DNA of 64,000 nt, taken from NCBI RefSeq assembly GCF_900143185.1, contig NZ_FSRQ01000003.1, positions 62,001-126,000 of the forward strand, in the 5' to 3' direction. The stretch is from Chryseobacterium scophthalmum (lineage in GTDB: Bacteria > Bacteroidota > Bacteroidia > Flavobacteriales > Weeksellaceae). The stretch's first letter is position 1; each line of letters opens with the position of its first letter. The notes under the pieces are model-generated. The model had not been told where the DNA came from. It made no database searches and was given only the letters and a program-made list of their open reading frames with translations. Positions 29,471 through 63,454 of the stretch are shown piece after piece. A program made the position numbers and the translations under genes.

Positions 29471-29842
29471 ATGATGAAAAGATTCATTCTCGTAATCATA
29501 ATGATGATTTCAACACTAGGTATTTATTCATTTACGAATAATGCTGTAGATGCGAAGAAAACAAGTTATGCATCGTACTACCACGATAAATTTAACGGTA
29601 GAAAAACTGCAAGCGGTGAGATTTTTGATAATTCAAAACTTACTGCGGCACACAGAACGCTTCCTTTTGGTACTGAAATAAGGGTAACCAATCTGAATAA
29701 TGGAAAAGAGGTAATTGTAACGGTTAATGATAGAGGACCTTTCCATTCATCAAGAGCTTTAGATATGTCTAAAGCCGCGTTCGATGAAATCGGAAATACC
29801 GATCGCGGTACCATTCCGGTGGAATTTGAAATTGTCGATTAA
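29471..29842 (+). CDS. RlpA-like double-psi beta-barrel protein, copy 1
   Basis: This 123-residue protein has a signal peptide (RFILVIIMMISTLGIYSF, cut near NNAVDA) and one RlpA/DPBB domain: ASYYHDKFNGRKTASGE, TAAHRTLPFGT, VTNLNNGK, VNDRGPF and ALDMSKAAF. RlpA proteins bind or cleave denuded peptidoglycan glycan strands at the septum. This form lacks the SPOR domain of the E. coli protein. The Asp of VNDRGPF and the His of AAHRTLP match residues used by active family members. A terminator follows at 29860. Confidence 0.88.
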   Translation: MMKRFILVIIMMISTLGIYSFTNNAVDAKKTSYASYYHDKFNGRKTASGEIFDNSKLTAAHRTLPFGTEIRVTNLNNGKEVIVTVNDRGPFHSSRALDMSKAAFDEIGNTDRGTIPVEFEIVD

Positions 29843-30488: not shown

Positions 30489-30860
30489 ATGATGAAAAGA
30501 TTCATTCTCGTAATCATAATGATGATTTCAACACTAGGCATTTATTCATTTACGAATAATGCTGTAGATGCGAAGAAAACAAGTTATGCATCGTACTACC
30601 ACGATAAATTTAACGGTAGAAAAACTGCAAGCGGAGAGATTTTTGATAATTCAAAACTTACTGCAGCGCACAGAACGCTTCCTTTTGGTACCGTAGTTAG
30701 GGTTACCAATTTGAACAATGGTAAAGAAGTAATTGTATCGATTAATGATAGAGGTCCTTTCCATTCAGCAAGAGCATTAGATATGTCTAAAGCTGCGTTC
30801 GATGAAATCGGAAATACCGACCGCGGTGTTATTCCGGTGGAATATGAAATTGTCGATTAA
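30489..30860 (+). CDS. RlpA-like double-psi beta-barrel protein, copy 2
   Basis: This 123-residue protein is nearly identical to the gene at 29471. The first 55 residues are the same and only a handful differ afterwards (for example VVRVTN for EIRVTN, SINDRGPF for TVNDRGPF, YEIVD for FEIVD). It has the same signal peptide and single DPBB domain. It is a tandem duplicate with its own promoter and an identical terminator, so dosage or differential expression may be the reason it is kept. Confidence 0.88.
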   Translation: MMKRFILVIIMMISTLGIYSFTNNAVDAKKTSYASYYHDKFNGRKTASGEIFDNSKLTAAHRTLPFGTVVRVTNLNNGKEVIVSINDRGPFHSARALDMSKAAFDEIGNTDRGVIPVEYEIVD

Positions 30861-50894: not shown

Positions 50895-53800
50895 TTACAT
50901 CAAATCTCCCAAATGTTTAAACTTCTCTACAAATGCTGAAATTTTCTGAAAAACACTTTGTTTTTTAGTTAAATATTTAGGGTTTAGAGGACTCATTTTA
51001 GGCAAGATAGCATTGAGCTCTGTCCCATTTTCACTTGCGTATTCACGTTTTAAAGAAGCATTGATATATCGCTTTGCAGCATCTTCATTTAGTTGTTCAT
51101 CAACAATTAAATCCTGTGCTTCCACATTCAGTTTCTCTTGTGCGTATTTATAAAATGCTTCTAAAATATTAGGCTTACTTTCGATAGAATCCAGTTCTGT
51201 ACTATTAATAAAATCAACAACCAAACCTTCTTTAGACCTGTTCCCGATACTGGCGCGGATAACTCTACGAATTTCTTCGATAAGTACAGCTTTGTCTTTA
51301 TTTTTTTTGTTGTGCTCAAAAATTAATTCAAGAATGTAGTCAAGATTAATCTCCTGAGATTTCAACAAGTCCACTTCAAAAATCACATCATCCCAATCTA
51401 CAGTCGATTCTTCAGCTTCTTTTCCTGTTTTTTCACGGCGCAACCAATCACGAATGTCGTTATAAGTTGATTTATAATTTTGTATTGTTCTGTCTGGAAC
51501 TAATTTTACTTTCTCCAAATCCGAAAATTCTTCGTCTGTTACAAAATTGGTTTCTTTAAAATCCTTCACAGCTTCTTCATCATTTAAATCTACAGTTTGA
51601 AGTGCTTTCAAATGCGTAAACTCATCGTAATTCTGAAGAATATTTTCTACACGCAAATATTCTCCAAATAGTTTTGAAAATTCTTTTTTGTCCTTTTCTC
51701 TTACAATTTCATCTGGATCTGGAAATTTTTCATTGAGCTCTTTTACAATATCAATAAATCCTCTGCGTGCAGTTCCATTGACTAAATCTGTAAAGCCTTC
51801 CAAATATTCTTTGTAACTTTTCTCCAATACAACATTTTTGGTGTTTTTGTCTCCGAATAAAGTTATTGCATCTATGGTGGCGGTTTCCAAATCTCTGAAA
51901 GTAACTATATTCCCAAAGGTTTTTGTTGCGTCATAAATACGGTTGGTCCGTGAGAAAGCCTGCATCAAACCGTGATAACGCAAGTTTTTGTCTACAAATA
52001 ATGTATTCAATTCTGGTGCATCAAAACCTGTTAAAAACATTCCTACCACAATAATGAGGTCAATTTCTTTTTTCTTAACTCTATTTGCAAGATCACGGTA
52101 GTAATTCTGAAACTCTTTGCTATCAACACCAAAGGTAGTTTTAAACATCTTGTTATAATTATTGATAGCTTTTGTTAGAAACTCTTTTGCACTACTGTCC
52201 ATTACAGATGGTTCAAAACTTTCATCTACAATTTCTCCAATAGCACTCTGTTCCTCATTAGCTGCAAAAGAAAATATCGTGGCAATTTTCAAAGGCTTTT
52301 CAATGTCTTTTTGCAAATTGTTTAGTTCTTCGTAATAGAATTTAGCAGCATCTACACTGCTAACAGCAAACATAGCATTAAACCCTGTGTTGCTGCCTAA
52401 CGTTCTGTGTGTTTTATATCTGTAATTTTGTAGAATATATTGTGAAATTTCCTTAATACGACCCGGATGCAAAAGTGCTTTTCTGTTTTCTGCTGCACTT
52501 AATTTTTTTTCGTCTTGCTCTGTTTCAAAACTTTTAAACTTAGGACGAACATCGTTATAATCTACCTTGAATTTTAAAACTTTTTCATCTCTAATTGCAT
52601 CGGTAATTACATAAGAATGCAGCTCACGTCCAAAAACACTTGCTGTAGTTTCTGACCCTAAAGCATTTTGTGGAAATATGGGAGTTCCTGTAAAGCCAAA
52701 CTGATAAAACCTTTTAAACTTTTTCTTTAGATTTTTTTGAGCTTCTCCAAACTGAGAACGGTGTGCTTCATCAAAAATAAAAACCACCTGTTTCTGATAG
52801 ATCCCTAGATCATTCTCAGTTTTCATCAGATTGTTAAGCTTCTGTATTGTGGTTATAATAATCCTACTGTCAACCTTGTCAATATTCCGTTTCAATCCTG
52901 CTGTACTGTCAGAACCGTTTACACTGTCCGGCGAGAATCGCTGATATTCTTTCATTGTTTGAAAGTCCAAATCTTTTCTGTCGACAACAAAGAATACTTT
53001 ATCTATAAAATCTAAGTCAGTTGCCAATCGGGCTGCTTTAAAGCTGGTGAGAGTTTTTCCCGAACCTGTCGTATGCCAAATATAACCGCCACCTTCTGTA
53101 TTCGACCATTTTTTAGCCTCAAAAGAACTTCCTATTTTCCATAATATTCTTTCTGTAGCTGCAATCTGATACGGTCGCATAATGAGCAACGTATCACTAA
53201 TATCAAGAACAGAATACGTAAGCAAAACATTGAGTATCGTATTTTTTTGAAAAAAGGTAGCTGTAAAATCTTTAAGATCTTTGATTAGCGTATTATCTGC
53301 TCTTGCCCAGTTCATTGTAAAATCGAAACTATTCTTGTTTCGTTTTACGGTGTTGGCAAAATAACGGCTGTCTGTACCGTTTGAAATCACAAACACCTGC
53401 AAATATTTGAAAAGCGAACTCTCGCTGTTAAAACTCTCCTTACTGTAACGGTGAACCTGATTAAACGCTTCTCTTATGGCTAAACCTCGTTTTTTCAGTT
53501 CCACCTGAACCATCGGCAAACCATTAACCAAAACGGTTACATCATAACGGTTAGCATGGGTTCCTTTGAGTTCAAATTGAGATATGACCTGTAATTTATT
53601 TCTAGTAACATTCTTTTTATCTACCAAATAAATATTCTGGATGTGGCCATCATCAAAGACGAAATCATAAACGTGATTATGATGCAGTTTTTTTGCTTTA
53701 TCAATAATACCATCGGAAGGTTTATCCAGATACTCCACTACAAAACGTGCCCATTCTGCATCTGTAAAAACCATATTATTCAACTCTTGCAGTTGTACTC

Positions 53801-54002
53801 GTATATTGGCTAGCATTGCCTGCATAGATGTAATATGCTTAGGGTTTTCGTAACCTTGCTTGATTAGATCCTGAACAAACTCCTTTTCTAATGCAGCCTC
53901 TGTCTGATAACCTACAGGTGCTTCATTTACTGATGAATGCTTTTGATACTCGTTTAAAACAATAAAATTGTTTGATTCTGCTATGGTGTTATATTGTGAC
54001 AT
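50895..54002 (-). CDS. hsdR: Type I restriction endonuclease subunit R
   Basis: This 1035-residue protein has an N-terminal PD-(D/E)xK nuclease (about 125-185, [20 protein letters not shown]), SF2 helicase motifs (Walker [17 protein letters not shown] near 314; DEAH in [10 protein letters not shown] near 410; FGFTGTPIF) and a long C-terminal part that binds the methyltransferase. Length and motifs fit the EcoR124 (type IC) family. I use ATG 54002; the TTG at 54011 is possible. It overlaps the end of prrC by 14 bases. Confidence 0.93.
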
Positions 54003-55194
54003 TTGGTGCAATTAGATTTGAAAATTTATACTCTGTTTCTAAAAAATCAATTAATTCAATAAATTTGATTTTGTCATTTTCTTGTACTTCTGCTAACTCT
54101 TCGCCTGCATGAGCTGAATGACTGGAGAGATTTAAGATGCGATTTGCAAATGGATCAGGAGAATTATCCGCGATCTTGGGAAGCAGCTCTTCCCATTTAT
54201 CAAATCCTAAAAATGTCGCTGTTTTTTCTAATACATTTCTTAAAAAATTAAAATGATATTTTTCAATTTGATCATTATTCTTAGCTTTCTGAAGTTCTAA
54301 AAGTAAATGAAGATGATATGAAAATGGTGTTTTTCTATCTAACTGAATTAGATTATATCTTCCATCATTTTGTTTTTTTAATTTATATTTAATAGATTGA
54401 TTCTCTTCATAAATCCATCTTTTCATAACACCACTGTTTGTTACTATTTCAGGATTTTTATTAGCTTGTTTATTATTTAATTCATTTGATATTACATTAT
54501 AAAAGAGAGGATTGTGAGTCGTTATAATAAATTTCAATTTATTTGACTCACTAGTTTTAACTAGTTTTGCTATTGCAACCGCTAATTCAATTAGATTATT
54601 ATCATCTAAAGAACTTACAGGATCGTCAATAAATATATATTCTAATTCATTAAATTTATCTGTTGAACGATCTTCCTCTTTATCATTTAATAATTTTGTA
54701 ATCTGCTCAATTAAACTATAAAAAATACACCATATAAAATTGCTTTCTTCACCTTTAGAAATTTTTATATTCGGCTCACTATTATCACCTCCACTAAAGT
54801 AACTAAATGTAATTTCAGTGAAATCATCATTAAATATTGGTGTTATGGACGATGTTGCATAATGTTGGAAATTGATAATAATGTTACCATCTTGATTCTC
54901 GTCTTTTAAAAATGAAAGTGCTAAATCTGTGTAAGCATTTGGTCGAACTAAAAGTTTTCTATCTACATCACCAGTCAAGTCATTATCCCAATAAAACAAA
55001 TCTTCGGTAAAAGCATTATAATACATAATCTTGATACCTGTATCTTCTTCTGTTTCTGGGCTTTTAGGAGCAATTAATTCTTTAACTTCTCTTGATAATC
55101 GGGTTTTACCTATGCCATTAAAGGCATAGATTAGTTGTACTTTTTTGTTTGTATCAATCAGTTTTTGTGCTATTTCAGTAAGTGTTTGGCTCAT
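53989..55194 (-). CDS. prrC: PrrC-like anticodon nuclease with ABC ATPase
   Basis: This 401-residue protein is close in length to E. coli PrrC. The ABC-type ATPase occupies the first two thirds: Walker [12 protein letters not shown] (residues 21-31), signature-like SKGEES (147-152), Walker B/D-loop [12 protein letters not shown] (187-198) and TTHNP (225-229). The C-terminal third has Arg319-x3-Glu323 and His359, matching the R-E-H active site known from PrrC. PrrC cuts tRNA-Lys in the anticodon loop when a phage disables the linked restriction enzyme. It lies between hsdS and hsdR, as in the E. coli prr locus. Confidence 0.88.
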
Positions 55195-55210
55195 GTTAGA
55201 TGGTAATAGT

Positions 55211-56371
55211 TTATTTTGGAAAGGTTAATAGGAGATTACGGTAATATTCATACTGTTTTTGTCTCAACTCTATTTCCTTTGGTAAGCCTTCATTTATTGA
55301 TGTAGTTAGCGTATCAAATTTATCTAAAATGGATACAATTCTTTTCTGCTCATCCAATGCAGGAACTGGTATTTTTATTTTTGCCAAATCATCTGCATTA
55401 ACTCTTCTAACTTTTGTACCCGTAATAAAAGGTCTTTTTTGTTTTTGAAATTGTTCAGTTTGAAAATAATAGGCAACGTATTTCGGATTTAACTGATGAG
55501 CATAAAAACAAGCATCACTGCTTACTGCTATTTTGTCCTTTCCCAACCAAACAACAGCTTTACAAACATCTTCGTCATTTTCACTTGTTGTTGCTATGAC
55601 TAAATTTCCGTGTTCAGCCATACGTGCTTTCTTTGCAAATTCCTCTGAAACAAATGATTTTGTTTTATCTGCAGATGTTCCATAGTAAGTATAAATTTGA
55701 CCATAGTGAATGCAACCTATACCTGTTTCAGTGAAGTCTTTTTTCTGTAAACCACTACCTCGAATAAATTTACCAACGTTTTCATCTCCCATCGGTAAAT
55801 GTTGTACTTCATTTTCATCAAAACGGAACAATCGCTCTCTATAATAACTATATTGCTGTTTTCGAGCTGTAAGCTCGGCTGTAAGCTCGGCTGTAAGCTC
55901 GGTAAAGGTATCAAGAATTGCAACTATCTTTTGTTGAATTTCGAGAGATTTTTTAGGGTTTTCTGGGCAAGGGATTGGGATAAGAGTTTCTTTTGCAGAA
56001 GACCAATGCCTTTTATAGGTATATTCCTTTATATAGAAATTCACTAACGCATAATAGATATATTTTGTACTATCAATATTTGATTTAAGAATTTTTAATC
56101 CATCAGCACCTTGTATAAAAGTAAAATCAACATATTTTATGTGCTCAGAATGATCTCCAAAAATAACATATTCTCCAGCTTTAATCTTAGCAAAATTTTC
56201 ATCTGTATAACCAGCAATAAAATTAATACCTTGGTCAATAACTGGAATTTTTCCAATTTGACCATAAGTATTTTTATTTAACTTTACAGGAGCAGTAATA
56301 GTTGAAACAATTTCCTCTAATGGCTTCCACTCCACCTTAACTGCATCCAATAATTTATCTAAAAATCTCAT
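55211..56371 (-). CDS. hsdS: Type I restriction specificity subunit S
   Basis: This 386-residue protein has two target recognition domains (about 1-145 and 195-340) separated by a conserved helical spacer. The second half of each unit ends in an [23 protein letters not shown] coiled coil. The spacer contains the type IC hallmark TAEL repeats ([15 protein letters not shown], about 155-170). Each domain reads half of the bipartite target. It overlaps hsdM by four bases, showing coupling. Confidence 0.93.
55867..55902 (-). repeat. Three 12-base tandem repeats in hsdS (TAEL)
   Basis: CTGTAAGCTCGG occurs three times in a row on the plus strand (55867, 55879, 55891), coding TAEL-type units on the minus strand. 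Gain or loss of one unit keeps the frame and alters the distance between the two recognition domains. Confidence 0.92.
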
Positions 56372-57915
56372 GCTTCAATTTCTTTAATTATAGAATCTAT
56401 ATCAACACGCAGTCTATTAATCTTTCCTATTGTTTTTTCAATTTCAGAGTTAAGTACAGCAATGTCAATCTTTTGTCTATTGTCTTTAGCTTCAATATAG
56501 GAACTTACCGAAAGGTTATAATCTTTTTCAGCAATTTTGGCATTTTCAATAGAAGTTGCAATGTGTTGTATTTCTTCCTTGCTATCAAAAATTGCCATTA
56601 TTTTCTCAATATGTGCATCAGTCAACATATTGTTGTTGGTTACTTTTGTAAAATAATCTTCTCCCGTTACATCTATAAACTGTGTCTTAGTATCCGATTT
56701 ATGTTTTGATAGCACAAGAATATTTACCGCAATAGAAGTCCCATAAAATAAGTTGGGAGCTAAAGAAATAACCGCTTCTACATAATTCTGATCTACCAGA
56801 TATTTCCTGATCTTCTGCTCGGCACCGCCACGATAAAAAATACCGGGAAAGCAGACAATAGCTGCTCTACCTCTCGGAGATAAATAGTGCAAAGCATGGA
56901 GTACAAAGGCAAAATCGGCTTTGGATTTCGGGGCTAAAACTCCGGCAGGTGCAAAACGATCGTCATTAATCAGTGTTGGGTCATCACTTCCAACCCAAGG
57001 GATAGAATAAGGAGGATTAGAAACAATCGCATCAAACGGCTTTTCATCACCTAACTGCGGATCTCTTAACGTATCGCCCAATACAATATGAAACTTATCA
57101 TAATTGACATTGTGCAGAAACATATTCATACGGGCAAGGTTATACGTCGTATGATTAATTTCCTGACCGAAAAAACCTTCCTGAATAATATGATTGTCAA
57201 AATGTTTCTTCGCCTGCAACAGTAAGGAACCTGAACCTGCAGCAGGATCATAAATCTTGTTAACTACTGATTGTCCGTGCATTGCCAATTGGGCAATTAG
57301 TTTAGAAACATGTTGTGGGGTAAAAAATTCACCACCAGATTTTCCAGCATTAGCAGCGTAGTTACCAATAAGAAATTCATAAGCATCACCAAAAAGATCA
57401 ATTTGACTGTCTTCAAAGTTGCCAAAATTAAGCTGTTCAACACCTTTGATTACAGCTGCTAAACGTTTATTTTTATTTTCTACTGTATTTCCTAATCGCG
57501 AACTCGTAGTATCAAAATCTGCAAACAATCCAGAAATATCATCTTCCGAGGGAAAGCCTTTAGCAGAATTTTCAATTGAATCAAAAATAGCTTTTAAATC
57601 TGTATTAAGATTATCTTTATTGTTGGCTGTTTTTGCAATATTAACAAAAAGCTGACTTGGATAGATAAAATATCCCTTAGTCTTGATGGCATCAACTTTT
57701 ATTTCATTAGGTATCTGATCATCTTGAAAAGTGGCGTAATCAAAGCTTTCATCACCGCCTTCGATATAATTGATAAAGTTTTCACTAATAAAGCGATAAA
57801 ATAGAGTACCTAAAACAAACTGTTTAAAATCCCATCCATCTACTGAACCCCTAACTTCATTGGCTATTTTCCAAATTTGGTTTTGCAACGCTGCTCTTTG
57901 TACTGTGCTTGTCAT
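56368..57915 (-). CDS. hsdM: Type I DNA adenine methyltransferase subunit M
   Basis: This 515-residue N6-adenine methyltransferase has an N-terminal HsdM helical domain, the SAM-binding motif [15 protein letters not shown] (about 220-235), the catalytic [11 protein letters not shown] (near 298), and [13 protein letters not shown] sequence before motif I. It methylates both halves of the target together with HsdS. It heads the hsdM-hsdS-prrC-hsdR operon. Confidence 0.95.
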
Positions 57916-58210: not shown

Positions 58211-58432
58211 TTAAAGTCCAGCTATTTCAAAGAATTTAGATAACTTTATATTCTTAGCCTCACAAATTCTCATTATAGTAATTAAACTAATTTGATAAGT
58301 GTCATCTTCTCTAATTCTCCTTACAGTCTTTTCATCAAGATTAGTCTCGGTTGCAAACTGACTATTATTATTCAGGGGAATAACCCACGTATCCCTTATA
58401 AATTCAACAATCTTTCTATTTGTAACTTTCAT
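58211..58432 (-). CDS. Small helix-turn-helix regulator (Cro/C1-like), 73 residues
   Basis: This 73-residue protein has a helix-turn-helix at about residues 22-60 (FATETNLDEKTVRRIREDD, then ISLITIMRICEAKNIKLSKFF). The DEKTVRRI recognition helix is typical of Cro/C1-type regulators in Bacteroidota. It is divergent from the RNA-sigma-Cas12f locus and about 110 bases from its promoter. A 10-base palindrome lies between them, so it probably autoregulates and may control the neighbouring locus. Confidence 0.75.
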   Translation of the reverse strand: MKVTNRKIVEFIRDTWVIPLNNNSQFATETNLDEKTVRRIREDDTYQISLITIMRICEAKNIKLSKFFEIAGL

Positions 58433-58461: not shown

Positions 58462-58487
58462 ATAATTCGGACTCAAATCCGAATTAT
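58462..58487. repeat. Palindrome between the HTH gene and the RNA locus
   Basis: ATAATTCGGA (58462-58471), CTCAAA, then TCCGAATTAT (58478-58487) is a perfect 10-base inverted repeat. It sits 30 bases before the HTH start. It fits a dimeric repressor site; a T-run after it (58491-58497) would also let it act as a plus-strand terminator shielding the RNA promoter. Confidence 0.6.
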
Positions 58488-58505
58488 CAAATTTTTTTAT
58501 TATAT

Positions 58506-58536
58506 TTGTGATATAAGTTACAAGAATGTAACTTTG
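58506..58536 (+). promoter_or_regulatory. Promoter of the structured RNA, with overlapping palindrome
   Basis: TTG (58506-58508), 20 bases, then TAACTTTG (58529-58536) fits the Bacteroidota consensus. An inverted repeat AAGTTAC-N6-GTAACTT (58515-58534) overlaps the -7 box, a good place for an operator. TATATTTG at 58501-58508 is a second -7-like box. Transcription from the main promoter should start near 58541. Confidence 0.65.
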
Positions 58537-58540
58537 CGAT

Positions 58541-58713
58541 AGTTCAAAGAAATATAGAAGCTATTGCTTAGATTCTCGCATTAGAAAACTGGTAATTTTA
58601 TGTGTACGAGAAGATAAGTAAATGTGCTCACGACTTCGGCGTGGGCTCACTTATCGTACACGGGTATACCAGTGCCTCTAATGCTGTAAGTTGAGTTCCA
58701 CGCTTTTTCTTTT
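58541..58713 (+). ncRNA. Candidate guide RNA for the dead Cas12f, with tracr-like scaffold
   Basis: This intergenic RNA candidate has four nested helices. GCATTAGA (58578-58585) pairs with TCTAATGC (58677-58684), ACTGGTA (58588-58594) with TACCAGT (58667-58673), and GTGTACGA (58602-58609) with TCGTACAC (58654-58661). The apex GCTCACG (58626-58632) pairs with CGTGGGC (58640-58646), capped by a C-TTCG-G tetraloop. It resembles a Cas12f tracrRNA-like scaffold. After the closing helix come about 19 unpaired bases (58685-58703), where a 3' guide would lie, then a T-rich stretch TTTTTCTTTT (58704-58713). A consensus promoter precedes it. The ends and the guide role are inferred. Confidence 0.7.
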
Positions 58714-58771
58714 GTTCTAAAATAAAAGAAATAAGGGTTCAAAATATAAGTAGAATTCATCTTATTGATCT

Positions 58772-58812
58772 AAGCAGTTCCTTCCAGCAAAATTTGCTAA
58801 AATACGCTGCTT
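58772..58812 (+). promoter_or_regulatory. Leader hairpin reaching the sigma-factor start codon
   Basis: AAGCAG (58772-58777) pairs with CTGCTT (58807-58812), which directly abuts the ATG at 58813. Inside, AGCAAA (58786-58791) faces TTTGCT (58793-58798). Such a fold could limit ribosome access. Confidence 0.4.
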
Positions 58813-59628
58813 ATGAAAAGAATAGACTCTTTACCCAGAAAGCTGACCAATCTTCAGTTGTACGAACTACTGAAAAATGGCGACCCTGCTGCTCTGGAAT
58901 ACATTCATCTGCGCTATAAAAGACTTCTTTTCTGGGTTGGATGGCAGGTGCTGAAGGATGATTTTGTAGTGGATACTATTGTTCAGGATACCTTCCTCAA
59001 ACTGTGGCTGCACCGCGACAATATTGAAACGCCTGATCATATAACCGGCTTTTTACGCTTTGTGATGAAGAGGGATTGTATAGCCTATGTGACTGCGCCC
59101 AAGAATAAATTCACCCGCCTTATGGCTTCTCTTGACAGTTTTGAGAATTATCAGGAGTATCTTGCAGGTTACGACCCTCTAAAAGATAAAGAGTACTTAC
59201 ATAGCCAGGAATCCGACCAAAACAAATTCGATGAAATCACAAAGGTTTTACCCGTACTGAACCCCAAAAGGAAACACCTGATAGAACTCTGCCTGGAATA
59301 TGGCTTCCAGTATAAACCTATCGCAGAGGCTATGGGAAGCAGCGTTACAGGCATCAGCATGGAGGTGAGCAAAGCCATAGATGAGCTTCGGAAAATTCTT
59401 AAAGTCACCTCGTTTGAGGAGCCGGAGGAAAAAAATGAACTTAAACAAGAGCAGTCAGAACAACTCAGCAGTCAGCAGCTCGAGATCATCAAAAAAAGGT
59501 TTAAACAGAAATCCTCTTTTGCAGTTATTGCACAAGAACTGCAACTACCGGAAAAAGAAGTTCATCGGGAATTTCTGTACGCCTATCAACATCTGCAAAA
59601 TCATAACACTTCCGAAATACCGCTGTGA
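58813..59628 (+). CDS. ECF-type sigma factor with an extra C-terminal HTH, partner of dead Cas12f
   Basis: This 271-residue protein has sigma region 2 at about 13-94 (AALEYIHLRYKRLLFWVG, IVQDTFLKLWLHRD, GFLRFVMKRDC) and a region 4-like helix-turn-helix at about 139-197 (LPVLNPKRKHLIELC, YKPIAEAMGSSVTGIS, AIDELRKIL). A linker of charged residues follows, then a second similar helix-turn-helix at about 214-264 (SSQQLEIIKKRF, FAVIAQELQLPEKEV). Normal ECF sigma factors stop after one region 4. Region 2 should bind the core polymerase. The Cas12f-like gene starts one base after its stop (TGATATG), so the two are made together. G and C are visibly more frequent here than in the flanks. Confidence 0.85.
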   Translation: MKRIDSLPRKLTNLQLYELLKNGDPAALEYIHLRYKRLLFWVGWQVLKDDFVVDTIVQDTFLKLWLHRDNIETPDHITGFLRFVMKRDCIAYVTAPKNKFTRLMASLDSFENYQEYLAGYDPLKDKEYLHSQESDQNKFDEITKVLPVLNPKRKHLIELCLEYGFQYKPIAEAMGSSVTGISMEVSKAIDELRKILKVTSFEEPEEKNELKQEQSEQLSSQQLEIIKKRFKQKSSFAVIAQELQLPEKEVHREFLYAYQHLQNHNTSEIPL

Positions 59629-59629
59629 T

Positions 59630-60724
59630 ATGGAAAAGTCTACGATAACCCTGACCCGGAAAATTCAGCTGGTGATTGATGTTCCACCTGAAGATAAAAA
59701 CCAAATGTGGGAAAAGCTCTACCGGTATCAGAACCGCTGTTTCCGGGCGGCTAATCTGATTGTTTCCCATCTGTATGTACAGGAAATGATCAAGGATTTC
59801 TTTTATCTCACCGAAGAAATTCAATATAAATTAGCTGATGAAAAAAAAGAAGAAATGGGAATCTTCGACCGTTCGAAAACAAACACCACAGCACGCCTGG
59901 TCTTTGATCGTTTTAAAGGAGAAATCCCCACAGACATTCTGGGATGCCTGAACAATACGATCCAATCTACCTTTTCCAAAAACAAAGCCGACTACTGGCA
60001 GGGATCACAATCACTGAGGAACTTTAAAAAAGACATTCCCATTCCGCTTCCGGTCAAGTGCATCAGTAAAATGAAGTATGATGCGGAAAAGAAAGCGTTT
60101 AGCTTTAATATGTTTGCGATCCCGGTAAAAACCTATTTAGGGAGAGATTTCTCTGATAAGCATTTGGTCCTGGAACGCCTTTTAAGAGAAGAGATTAAGC
60201 TGTGCAACTCACAGGTCCAGCTGAAAGACGGTAAGATCTTTTGGCTGGCCGTCTTTGAATTTCAAAAAGACGACCACCGTTTAAAACCCGAAATAATTGC
60301 TGAAGCATCTCTATCATTAGAACATCCTATTGTGGTAAAAGCCAACAATGTGCGAATGAATATTGGCTCAAAAGAAGAATTCCTCTACCGCAGGCTAGCG
60401 ATCCAGGCTAGTAATAAAAGGATTCGAACCGGAGTTGCTTATTCCCGTTCAGGACATGGAACCAAACGGAAACAGAAGGCACTGCACAAAACAGTGGATC
60501 TGGAAAATCGTTTTGTCAGTCATCATCTTCATCTATACAGCCGGATGCTGATTGATTTCTGCATCCGGCAGCAGGCAGGCACACTGATTCTAAAAGATCA
60601 GGAGGACAAGATCGGGATTGCAAAAGAACAGGAATTTGTGCTGCGCAACTGGAGCTATTATGAATTGCAGACCAAAATAAAATATAAAGCAGAAAAAGCC
60701 GGTATCGAATTGATCATCGGATAG
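59630..60724 (+). CDS. Nuclease-dead Cas12f/TnpB-like RNA-guided DNA-binding protein
   Basis: This 364-residue protein aligns by eye with Cas12f over its length. ITLTRKIQLVID opens the wedge domain; SQSLRNFKKDIPIPLP lies near 127-141. The RuvC half has EEFLYRRLAIQASNKRIR and SGHGTKRKQKAL (274-285), the latter matching RAGHGAKNKLK of Un1Cas12f1, then LILKDQEDK and WSYYELQTKIKYKAEKAGIEL (341-361). The RuvC-I aspartate (GIDVG in active Cas12f) is replaced by PIVVKANNV (233-241). The RuvC-II glutamate (MENL) becomes LKDQ (321-324), and the protein ends before the zinc finger and third RuvC aspartate. It should bind RNA and DNA but not cut. I chose ATG 59630; the frame is open to 59381 inside the sigma gene. 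Confidence 0.85.
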   Translation: MEKSTITLTRKIQLVIDVPPEDKNQMWEKLYRYQNRCFRAANLIVSHLYVQEMIKDFFYLTEEIQYKLADEKKEEMGIFDRSKTNTTARLVFDRFKGEIPTDILGCLNNTIQSTFSKNKADYWQGSQSLRNFKKDIPIPLPVKCISKMKYDAEKKAFSFNMFAIPVKTYLGRDFSDKHLVLERLLREEIKLCNSQVQLKDGKIFWLAVFEFQKDDHRLKPEIIAEASLSLEHPIVVKANNVRMNIGSKEEFLYRRLAIQASNKRIRTGVAYSRSGHGTKRKQKALHKTVDLENRFVSHHLHLYSRMLIDFCIRQQAGTLILKDQEDKIGIAKEQEFVLRNWSYYELQTKIKYKAEKAGIELIIG

Positions 60725-60837
60725 CTAAAAAAATGAGGGTGCTTGTAAACCCGTAGGGTGAGGTTTTGAACACTCACTAAATACTGGAAACTGAGTAATT
60801 TTTCCGGTGTATACAACGGCGTAGGTTTCTTTTTTTT
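60725..60837 (+). ncRNA. Second candidate structured RNA after the Cas12f-like gene
   Basis: Downstream of the stop, GTGAG...CTCAC and ACTGGAAA (60783-60790) with TTTCCGGT (60801-60808, one wobble) can form helices. The latter is followed by about 21 bases and then eight T (60830-60837). TnpB guide RNAs lie in this place, so it could be a guide or simply a terminator region. Weaker than the upstream RNA. Confidence 0.35.
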
Positions 60838-61011: not shown

Positions 61012-62172
61012 TTAGAGTCTTTTTCTCTTTCTTTTATTTTGAATTGGAATATCCTCAGCCTCATAAGTTGAATTGTTATTACCGAATTGCAACAGAGAGA
61101 AAAGCTGATTTGTAATCTCATTATCTTTAAAAATCTCATTGAAGACTGAAAATGGAACCGTATTTTCTTGTGAAATTTTTTGTGCTATTTTTTCCATTTC
61201 CGATATCAACTTTTGCTTATCTGTTCTATCCAGGTGTGGATTTCTAAATCTTGAAAATTTGATTTCCCTCTCAACAATATTAATAACAGAATCCAAATAT
61301 TTTTTCTTTTCAGAAGCAAAAACTGTAGGGTTGGTCAATAGTGCAGAGTTTTTGTTTTTGAATAGATGTACATGCTTTTTTAAATCATCAACCTTTGTAT
61401 TGAGTTCAGTGATTTGTTTTGACTTAGATTCCAACTCAGTTTTATTTTTAAGAATTATGCTTTTGTATGTTCGAAATGCTTTTTCATAATTCTCAATGGT
61501 CTTGTCAGTCTTAATTTTTTTAAAACCTAGAAAATCATTTTCCTTTACAATCAGCTCCTCCGATTTCTTCGAACCCATTTCAGACTTCATCAAATCATAC
61601 CTTTCTTCCAAAACTTTGAGATCTTCTTCTTTCTGCTGAATCTTAAACTCAATCGCTTCCAATCTTCCTCTGGAACCAGAAACCCCTCTTTCCATATTCA
61701 GGCATTCTGCTGTCAGATCCTGCATTTTCGAATAGTGGAAAGATTGGTGTTTAAGTGTTTTACCAGTTTTTAAATCCTGCCAGTCAACTACCAAATGAGC
61801 GTGATAATTTGGTTTCCATTCTTTCGTGTCTTTATCAGTGTGTCCTTCGTCTTTATGAATGGCGATCTGAAAAACACGGATGTTCAATTCTTCTTCCAGT
61901 CTCTTTGCTAAGTTCTGAAGTTCCAGCATCGTTGTATTTTCTTTGATCACCACAACCGCTTCCCGAACAGGCATTGCATTCTTCTGTAATTTCCTTCCGG
62001 ACTTTTCTTTGCAATACGCTTCGATCTTTTGAATCCTGTCAGCTATTTTCTGCTCCATCCAGTATTCATTCTTTGGTGTAAGGTCTTTACGGATGTAATC
62101 AAAAGTTTTCTTCCTGAAATTATGGGTTTCAGAATCGGACTTAACAACTTTGAAATTAATAGAGGTCTTCAT
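61012..62172 (-). CDS. MobV (Mob_Pre) family relaxase
   Basis: This 386-residue protein has a relaxase domain in the first 190 residues, with a metal-binding HxH in NYHAHLVVDWQDLKTGKTLKH and FHYSKMQDLTAECLNMERG, the MobV/Pre pattern. A long coiled coil (about 190-290) and a basic C-terminus (KRKRKRL) follow. It should nick one strand at oriT to start mobilisation of the element. The start at 62172 is preceded by a highly structured region that may be the oriT. Confidence 0.88.
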   Translation of the reverse strand: MKTSINFKVVKSDSETHNFRKKTFDYIRKDLTPKNEYWMEQKIADRIQKIEAYCKEKSGRKLQKNAMPVREAVVVIKENTTMLELQNLAKRLEEELNIRVFQIAIHKDEGHTDKDTKEWKPNYHAHLVVDWQDLKTGKTLKHQSFHYSKMQDLTAECLNMERGVSGSRGRLEAIEFKIQQKEEDLKVLEERYDLMKSEMGSKKSEELIVKENDFLGFKKIKTDKTIENYEKAFRTYKSIILKNKTELESKSKQITELNTKVDDLKKHVHLFKNKNSALLTNPTVFASEKKKYLDSVINIVEREIKFSRFRNPHLDRTDKQKLISEMEKIAQKISQENTVPFSVFNEIFKDNEITNQLFSLLQFGNNNSTYEAEDIPIQNKRKRKRL

Positions 62173-62470: not shown

Positions 62471-63454
62471 TCACCGTTTCCTTTTAAAACCATTTGATTT
62501 TTTTATTTCCGGCTCCTGATCTCTTGTTTGTTGTTTATCCTGTTCTGGAAATTTATCAGATTGTTTTCCTTGCTTATTTGATAGATTATTTTTCATTCTG
62601 TGTCTCAAAAATTCGTTAAGATCTTTATGGTTGGAATAAATTCCTGAATGATCTTTTGCTTCCGGAAAGAATTTTATAATCTCTGATCTGCATTTAATTC
62701 CTGCATTATCATTGTCCAGAAAAAGATGGATGTCAGGATAGTTTTTCAGATGCTCTATCGATTTATTTAAAAGAGCAATGGAATTCATCACAAGGATATC
62801 TCCTGCAAAAGACTTTTGCAATTCAATAAAAGACAGTGCATCTATAAAACCTTCAAAAACAGCTACACCTCTGACATCTGTATCTTGAATATTTGATTTA
62901 TTCTGACCATTGACGCTGAGATCTATTAGTGAAACATCCTTTTTTAATAATGAACCTTTGTAAAAAGCATTACGCAATTCAAAACCGCCAGATAAGTTCT
63001 CGAAACCAATGGCATAGAGTTTCTTGCTTCTCATGGTAAATCGTACTTCTTTTATATGATCATAGACTTTAGGACTTAATCCACGTCCCTGCAAATATTG
63101 TTTCAGGTTTGGATTCTGGAGATCGAGTATTTCATCGATTGTGTAATTTGCTTCTGACTTTATAATCTGTTGTTGCTGATGAAAAGAAGAAAAATTCTGC
63201 TTCTCTGCCCATATCAAAACTTCATTGACCGAGGTATTTAAATACTTCTTCATAAAGTCGGTGTTATTGCCACCGACACCTTCTGAATGGAGATACCAGG
63301 CATTAATTCTTTTATCCAATTTGAAAGAGGCTTGGGATTCGCTGGCAAAGGGGTTGAGATACCAAGCTTCTTTTTCATTTTGTTTCGTGGGAAGGTGTCC
63401 GAGAGAAAGGAGGACTTCTTCCAACGATATGCTGTTGAATTTTTTGCAGTTCAT
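62471..63454 (-). CDS. Toprim-domain primase-like protein of a mobile element
   Basis: This 327-residue protein has an N-terminal CHC2-like region without a full set of zinc ligands (about 1-80, AWYLHSEGVGGNNTDFMKKY) and a C-terminal Toprim domain: FEGFIDALSFIELQ (Glu) and LFLDNDNAGIKC (DxD) near 210-270. Mobilisable elements of Bacteroidota often carry such a primase-like gene beside the relaxase. It probably primes replication after transfer. The tail (KQSDKFPEQDKQQTRDQE) is low-complexity. Confidence 0.85.
   Translation of the reverse strand: MNCKKFNSISLEEVLLSLGHLPTKQNEKEAWYLNPFASESQASFKLDKRINAWYLHSEGVGGNNTDFMKKYLNTSVNEVLIWAEKQNFSSFHQQQQIIKSEANYTIDEILDLQNPNLKQYLQGRGLSPKVYDHIKEVRFTMRSKKLYAIGFENLSGGFELRNAFYKGSLLKKDVSLIDLSVNGQNKSNIQDTDVRGVAVFEGFIDALSFIELQKSFAGDILVMNSIALLNKSIEHLKNYPDIHLFLDNDNAGIKCRSEIIKFFPEAKDHSGIYSNHKDLNEFLRHRMKNNLSNKQGKQSDKFPEQDKQQTRDQEPEIKKSNGFKRKR

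Follow-up and report, generated by a model that had tools for sequence, protein, structure and literature searches.

Predicted guides encoded beside dead Cas12f–sigma factor genes match a conserved leader RNA element of Bacteroidia, a likely address for RNA-guided transcription initiation

Complexes of a nuclease-dead Cas12f (dCas12f) with a sigma factor of the extracytoplasmic function (ECF) type are known from the PDB entries 9n9c, 9n9m, 9n9o and 9n9q; we presume that 9n9c and 9n9q stem from a 2025 preprint by Hoffmann, Sternberg and colleagues, in which RNA-guided transcription by dCas12f-sigmaE was reportedly described. To our knowledge, the natural targets of RNA-guided transcription initiation are still an open question in this young field. 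The present work deals with a locus of this kind in Chryseobacterium scophthalmum (assembly GCF_900143185.1, contig NZ_FSRQ01000003.1, positions 62,001 to 126,000; the whole stretch of 64,000 nucleotides is called the window hereafter and is numbered from its first letter), where the genes of an ECF-type sigma factor and of a dCas12f are followed by a predicted guide RNA and preceded by a structured leader RNA element that we call the rod. Our analyses argue that the sigma factor and the dead Cas12f, equipped with the downstream guide RNA, likely start transcription at rods, the apical stem of which is matched by the guides of relatives. The novelty lies in the proposed target regulon and in the RNA family formed by the rods, the dCas12f-sigma kind itself being known; among the literature matches listed, we recognised no paper on dCas12f-sigma systems or on the rod RNA.

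Several other systems deserve comparison. TldR proteins likewise represent an exapted dead lineage of TnpB/Cas12f, in which a guide RNA with a short conserved guide is encoded beside the gene and no sigma partner is known. In PMC13418256, TldRs are presented as nuclease-dead TnpB proteins and RNA-guided repressors of flagellin genes. Cas12f nucleases (9nzr, 9nzo, 8hr5, 7wju) are related by sequence to the protein of the window (E 5e-38 to 4e-15) but keep the catalytic residues, as seen for 9nzr, that have been lost in the window's dCas12f. An array is expected for CRISPR-Cas12f, whereas none was found between 56500 and 63500, the sole direct repeat listed in this region being a two-copy 20-nt family, 80% alike; the sequence-only reading that preceded this work had also seen no spacer-repeat genes. 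No adaptation gene was recognised by eye in the list of open reading frames (ORFs), and no profile search aimed at Cas1/Cas2 was made. Finally, TnpB of IS200/IS605 possesses an active RuvC with a zinc ribbon, whereas the RuvC of the Cas12f-like protein is dead; the guided_TnpB profile matched this protein at 2.7e-14, under the curated cut-off, and Pfam gave no match above threshold.

The sigma gene (58813-59628, forward strand) encodes 271 amino acids comprising regions 2 and 4 plus a second C-terminal helix-turn-helix (HTH), and its frame ends with TGA. As that reading had described, a single base (59629) separates it from the ATG of the dCas12f gene (59630-60724, forward strand; 364 amino acids), and both frames are intact. 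Pfam recognises Sigma70_r4 (5.9e-9, in 2 stretches) and Sigma70_r2 (5.2e-5, slightly below its cut-off) in the sigma factor, and NCBIfam recognises sigma70-ECF (4.9e-20). The dCas12f is identical to 9n9c_A ("Nuclease-deactivated Cas12f") at 233/364 positions (64%) over its full length (E 9.7e-157), while residues 17-264 of the sigma factor, second HTH included, align with 9n9q_C ("RpoE"; E 4.6e-76), 9n9q being an entry that contains dCas12f and RpoE together. The likeness of the window locus to these structures, drawn from protein sequence, concerns the dead Cas12f, the ECF-type sigma partner and the second HTH. Judged in this way, the window locus belongs to the dCas12f-sigma family already known from these entries, and the second HTH, correctly noticed before but believed to be peculiar to this locus, is by its alignment in 9n9q_C a family feature. 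With respect to catalysis, the alignment with the nuclease 9nzr places Ser (EASLS) in the Asp column of RuvC-I (GVDLG) and Lys (LILK) in the Glu column of RuvC-II, which we take from family knowledge to be the catalytic columns; moreover, the protein stops near residue 416 of the 508-residue 9nzr chain and the C-terminal part is therefore absent, so that the loss of catalytic residues claimed earlier is borne out. A sigma match lies beside dCas12f in 18/19 loci from L004 to L022 (the exception, L022, carries a dCas12f fragment), in 5/5 loci from L025 to L029 and in 20/20 loci from L159 to L178. The dCas12f is 82-95% identical to its best 120 relatives among the matches listed. Plasmids and phages yielded distant dCas12f matches only (23-28% identity), and none was confirmed on viral contigs.

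Beyond the dCas12f stop codon, a stretch of about 110 nt is conserved and ends with a U-run in 19/19 loci of named genomes (L004-L022). In the window it consists of a predicted guide RNA scaffold of three hairpins (60735-60817, forward strand), conserved, covarying and ending with GTATACAAC, followed on the same strand by the predicted guide GGCGTAGGTTTC (60818-60829) and the U-run (60830-60837). The guide is placed at the scaffold end because this is where divergent relatives vary: loci whose dCas12f is 63, 51, 46 and 41% identical, as well as those of genus g216 (about 55-60%), have a related scaffold, mostly through ..ATACAA, beyond which the sequence differs. Over 18 scaffolds, covariation reached 0.305 versus 0.141 after shuffling (0/500), the 5 pairs with double changes being equalled by 36/500 shuffles; it is to be read knowing that we proposed the three-hairpin structure from the same 18 scaffolds that were scored. 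A fold pairing the guide with the scaffold, returned by RNAalifold for near-identical guide RNAs (1 compensated pair) and also seen in the minimum-energy fold of the window guide RNA, was rejected since the diverse set supports three local hairpins. We thus predict a guide RNA produced downstream of dCas12f rather than upstream of sigma, and RNA binding is likewise a prediction. One regular expression, which misses several loci (e.g., L013, L027, L028, L116 and L167-L170), gathered 50 distinct scaffold-guide units: 38 begin with GGCGTGGG, 4 begin with GCGTGGG, 4 carry second-register guides (AGCTCACT twice, GGCTTACT and GGCTCGCT), one is the GGCGTAGG of the window and 3 are unrelated or unsupported. 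Relatives also provide the guides GGCGTGGGCTTC and AGCTCACTTATCGTT. Three loci of genus g216 (L159, L160, L161) possess a second scaffold about 320-370 nt beyond the first, with the guide GCGTGGGTTCACTTAC in L160 and L161 and a guide read by script as GCGTGGGTTCAC in L159.

The rod is a leader RNA element of about 150 nt (58557-58706, forward strand), which scores 167 bits with our covariance model R1, built from 15 sequences including that of the window. Its most conserved stretch is GGCGTGRGC; among 52 rods, 36 carry the variant GGCGTGGGC, 10 carry GGCGTGAGC, 3 carry GGCGTGGGT and 3 (L006, L063, L071) carry none of these. The candidate target comprises a G (58638), which would be the target-adjacent motif (TAM), and the following GCGTGGGCTCACTTATC (58639-58655, forward strand), in the 3' arm of the apical stem; that a 5'-G serves as TAM is our assumption, as are the start-site rules. 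When guides were compared with 79 rods, using 60 shuffles per guide, the best matches were those of L026 (17/17), L162 (14/14) and L159, L160 and L029 (14/15 each), none of which was equalled by any shuffle (0/60), and guides of near relatives reached 11-12/12 (0-2/60). The 14/14 match of L162 falls on the rod of the window (L056), the guides of L008 and L013/L019 match other rods at 12/12, and the guide of L026 matches the rod of its own operon at 16/17. In a flank control (52 rods and windows flanking them at the same loci), rod-type guides scored higher on rods than on every flank set. The matches occur in two registers on the apical 3' arm, GCGTGGGCTC.. and RGCTCACTTATCGTT, on the same strand and both behind a G; L160 and L161 encode tandem guide RNAs, one per register, and the two scaffolds of L159 carry guides of both registers. 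For guides starting with GCGTGG or [AG]GCT, all best matches lie on the strand of the rod and are preceded by a G, and for those starting with GGCGTGG the first G coincides with the preceding G of the target. Since the guides of relatives match the apical 3' arm at a 5'-G, the rod is, on the simplest reading, the likely DNA address of the family's guides.

One may wonder whether the guide acts on RNA instead, by base-pairing to the 5' arm in transcripts of the rod, whose fold or termination would change. A guide identical to the 3' arm is necessarily complementary to the 5' arm, and the rod is evidently under selection for RNA structure. On the other hand, both registers match at a G, as a DNA target with a TAM would, and Cas12f proteins bind DNA; we regard such RNA pairing as very unlikely and favour the rod DNA as the address.

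Several observations weigh against rods as the address. First, the guide of the window itself, GGCGTAGGTTTC, attains at best 10/12 with a seed mismatch, a score that 10/60 shuffles and one of the three flank controls also reach, and its two exact matches elsewhere in the genome lie in coding sequence. The guides of L163, L028, L166, L167, L168 and L169 are at chance on rods (31-60/60 shuffles), that of L027 (12/15, equalled by 10/60) is not above chance, and that of L170 begins like the guide of L169. L005, L007 and L012 have no rod at the sigma promoter yet keep the downstream guide RNA, the sequence stretches retrieved for L159-L167, L169, L170 and L174 yielded no rod, and the rods that L166, L167, L168, L169 and L178 do have sit about 2-3 kb upstream of sigma. 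By eye, g216 guides are closer to rods of different genomes than to those viewed in their own. Guides of 12 nt are short, and rods are common without dCas12f, implying that rods have another job which the guide may only exploit. In the genome of L029, which has a single rod, the guide differs from it at 4/15 positions, by eye.

The weak match in the window could mean that the system of this strain is decaying or has been retargeted. Indeed its guide carries an A at position 6, where 38/50 units have G, and this exchange may have weakened the guide or turned it to another target; no other of the 50 units is a GGCGTAGG guide, and the rod match of the window guide is at chance level. Against decay stand the two intact protein frames, the intact scaffold and the close identity of its dCas12f to those of relatives noted above. 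We hold this explanation to be possible but doubtful; it is compatible with rods being the address at the level of the family. When the window guide was searched in its own genome, the counts with at most one mismatch (4 forward, 7 reverse) were below those of the reversed-pattern control (14, 17). In six genomes searched with the L029 guide, none of the matches with 2 mismatches outside the dCas12f operons fell in a rod, and counts were near control. The impression that the L163/L164 guide GCAAGGGCC tracks the rod variant of L071 was also dropped, 52/60 shuffles being as good.

The occurrence of rods is by no means limited to genomes with dCas12f. The RNA upstream of sigma folds strongly (z -4.35, 0/200 shuffles), and in 32 rods 17/40 pairs show double changes, the covariation being 0.328 versus 0.117 for shuffled alignments (0/500), with slid structures at or below 0.056; in a second set of 18 rods, made up of 16 from elsewhere in the class and of 2 weak ones from the window's own genome, 31/40 pairs do so (0.678 versus 0.213, 0/500 shuffles). 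Both alignments were fitted to the covariance model, which favours that model. Rfam returned no match for the rod of the window (E up to 1) or for five other rod loci (E up to 0.1), and before any model was built a plain DNA search had revealed two further partial copies in the same genome. R1 detects rods in 16/18 genomes chosen for carrying dCas12f, in 210/296 genomes of the taxonomic family, where dCas12f (E up to 1e-20) occurs in 67/296, and in 54/395 genomes of the class Bacteroidia, where dCas12f (E up to 1e-10) occurs in 6/395. Comparing the lists by eye shows rods in 64 of the 67 genomes with dCas12f, the exceptions being G448, which later gave two weak rods, G508 and G697; this leaves 146 genomes of the family (210 minus 64) with a rod and no dCas12f match. 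The idea that rods merely accompany dCas12f was rejected on these counts. Sequence and covariation mark the rod as a distinct RNA family, unmatched in Rfam; being more widespread than dCas12f, it has a function of its own, onto which sigma-dCas12f would have evolved. Class-wide rods (loci L217-L232) are mostly in genomes without a dCas12f match. Two weak rods of the window's own genome, L215 (C5:114856-115011) and L216 (C2:589051-589210), lie near genes that look, by eye, like a restriction-type gene and a defence-system nucleotidyltransferase gene. On contigs C24, C6 and C36 of G297, rods start at most about 320 bases from the contig starts, as would be expected beside repeated sequence.

These figures bear on the sequence-only reading, which took the structured RNA in front of sigma to be the guide. 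This RNA is conserved, structured and adjoins sigma; however, it is present in those 146 genomes of the family that have no dCas12f match and in nine times as many genomes of the class as dCas12f, it is absent at the sigma promoter of L005, L007 and L012, and its apical arm matches the guides of relatives; it is downstream that we find a scaffold followed at its 3' end by a variable guide. We therefore give hardly any credence to the upstream RNA as guide. The wider idea, in which an RNA, the dead Cas12f and sigma would form a transcription system, survives by homology to the solved dCas12f/RpoE entries, activation being inferred.

What lies behind the rods? We classed 51 loci by gene content, a set that is not random (31 come from 18 dCas12f genomes, i.e., 30 best matches plus L002, and 20 from genomes without a dCas12f match): 18 precede sigma-dCas12f, 18 have a gene for a SusC-type receptor within 2.5 kb, 2 precede a response-regulator-like gene and 13 precede other genes. 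The 20 loci from genomes without a dCas12f match divide into 12 SusC and 8 other. Within the SusC group, 4/18 genes are about 1.5-1.7 kb from the rod and identities range from 23 to 52%; Pfam confirmed one SusC (Plug, 3.1e-21) and one SusD (SusD_RagB, 2.9e-21). In classed loci, guides have the sense of the coding strand of the gene that follows the rod, be it sigma-dCas12f, SusC or response-regulator-like. In several of the 13 other loci we recognised by eye a common protein of about 190 amino acids, for which Pfam gave no match (one tested). The two rod copies found first in the window's own genome lie upstream of a gene for 140-162 amino acids with a weak response-regulator match below cut-off (one tested) and adjoin transfer-operon-like blocks with a pair of genes for small HTH proteins (one examined, HTH_17); by eye, the surrounding elements are of the conjugative type. 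A divergent small ORF (73-121 amino acids) accompanies 48/51 rods, the one tested outside the window being an HTH protein. Rods L073, L079, L140, L145, L151 and L154-L157 precede a gene for a protein of about 175-260 amino acids, alike by eye (..FFQFHDLA..); Pfam returned no match for L157, the single one tested.

We therefore propose that dCas12f and its guide RNA would bind rod DNA, where an R-loop would form, and that RNA polymerase would be recruited by the sigma factor tethered there; initiation would occur downstream of the R-loop, and transcription would continue into the operon that follows the rod. In such a transcript the rod could not form, because the start would lie after its 5' arm. 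The complex would probably activate its own operon and rod-led operons, providing positive feedback on sigma-dCas12f and a coordinated activation of SusC/SusD transporter operons and of the response-regulator-like genes of conjugative elements; all this would depend neither on the divergent HTH repressor nor on the leader promoter. In the window this promoter has the flavobacterial -7 box TATATTTG (58501-58508, forward strand), which fits the consensus TAnnTTTG given in PMC9723704. The earlier claim of a structured upstream RNA with a Bacteroidota promoter holds for the fold and for this box, whereas no clear -33 box was seen by eye. The target lies inside the leader, 130 bp downstream of the -7 box, and a bound R-loop could also be a roadblock, dCas12f and guide stopping at the rod the RNA polymerase of the leader promoter in the manner of TldR, for which nuclease-dead TnpB repressors offer a precedent (PMC13418256), while sigma would act elsewhere or merely counter the block. 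The one-base coupling of sigma to dCas12f, its near-constant presence beside dCas12f in the three sets of loci and the shared entry 9n9q speak against such a roadblock, which we find unlikely; given its sigma partner, dCas12f would more plausibly activate than block. RNA-guided initiation at rods thus remains our favoured explanation, and a likely one.

Going further, the rod may found a new and widespread leader RNA class of Bacteroidia fronting XRE-controlled operons, against whose most conserved arm sigma-dCas12f guides, even tandem ones in two registers, would have evolved as one master switch for scattered transporter operons, conjugative-element regulators and itself, which would initiate inside the leader and thereby bypass both repressor and rod; the chances of this whole picture seem to us evenly balanced. 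Be that as it may, the guides of many relatives converge on one element located before transporter operons and their own operon, which makes the natural regulon directly testable, and the rod, found in more than one in eight of the Bacteroidia genomes, is a strongly covarying leader RNA that nothing in Rfam matched.

With regard to the surroundings of the locus, the divergent gene announced earlier encodes an XRE/Cro-type HTH protein (58211-58432, reverse strand; 73 amino acids; Pfam HTH_26, 4.5e-5), likely the local repressor of the leader promoter. Between this gene and the promoter, the sequence contains a palindrome, TTCGGACTCAAATCCGAA (58466-58483), a candidate operator; it was also called a terminator-like hairpin, but at shuffle level. 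Downstream, the locus adjoins a weak relaxase-like protein (61012-62172, below cut-off) and a Toprim/primase-like protein (62471-63454), which suggests a mobilisable element. A type I restriction-like block extends from 50895 to 57915 with an AAA_13 protein within (53989-55194), its other genes being named by eye. Finally, two ORFs of 123 amino acids about 1 kb apart (29471-29842 and 30489-30860) are identical over their first 60 residues, reflecting either a tandem duplication or an assembly effect.

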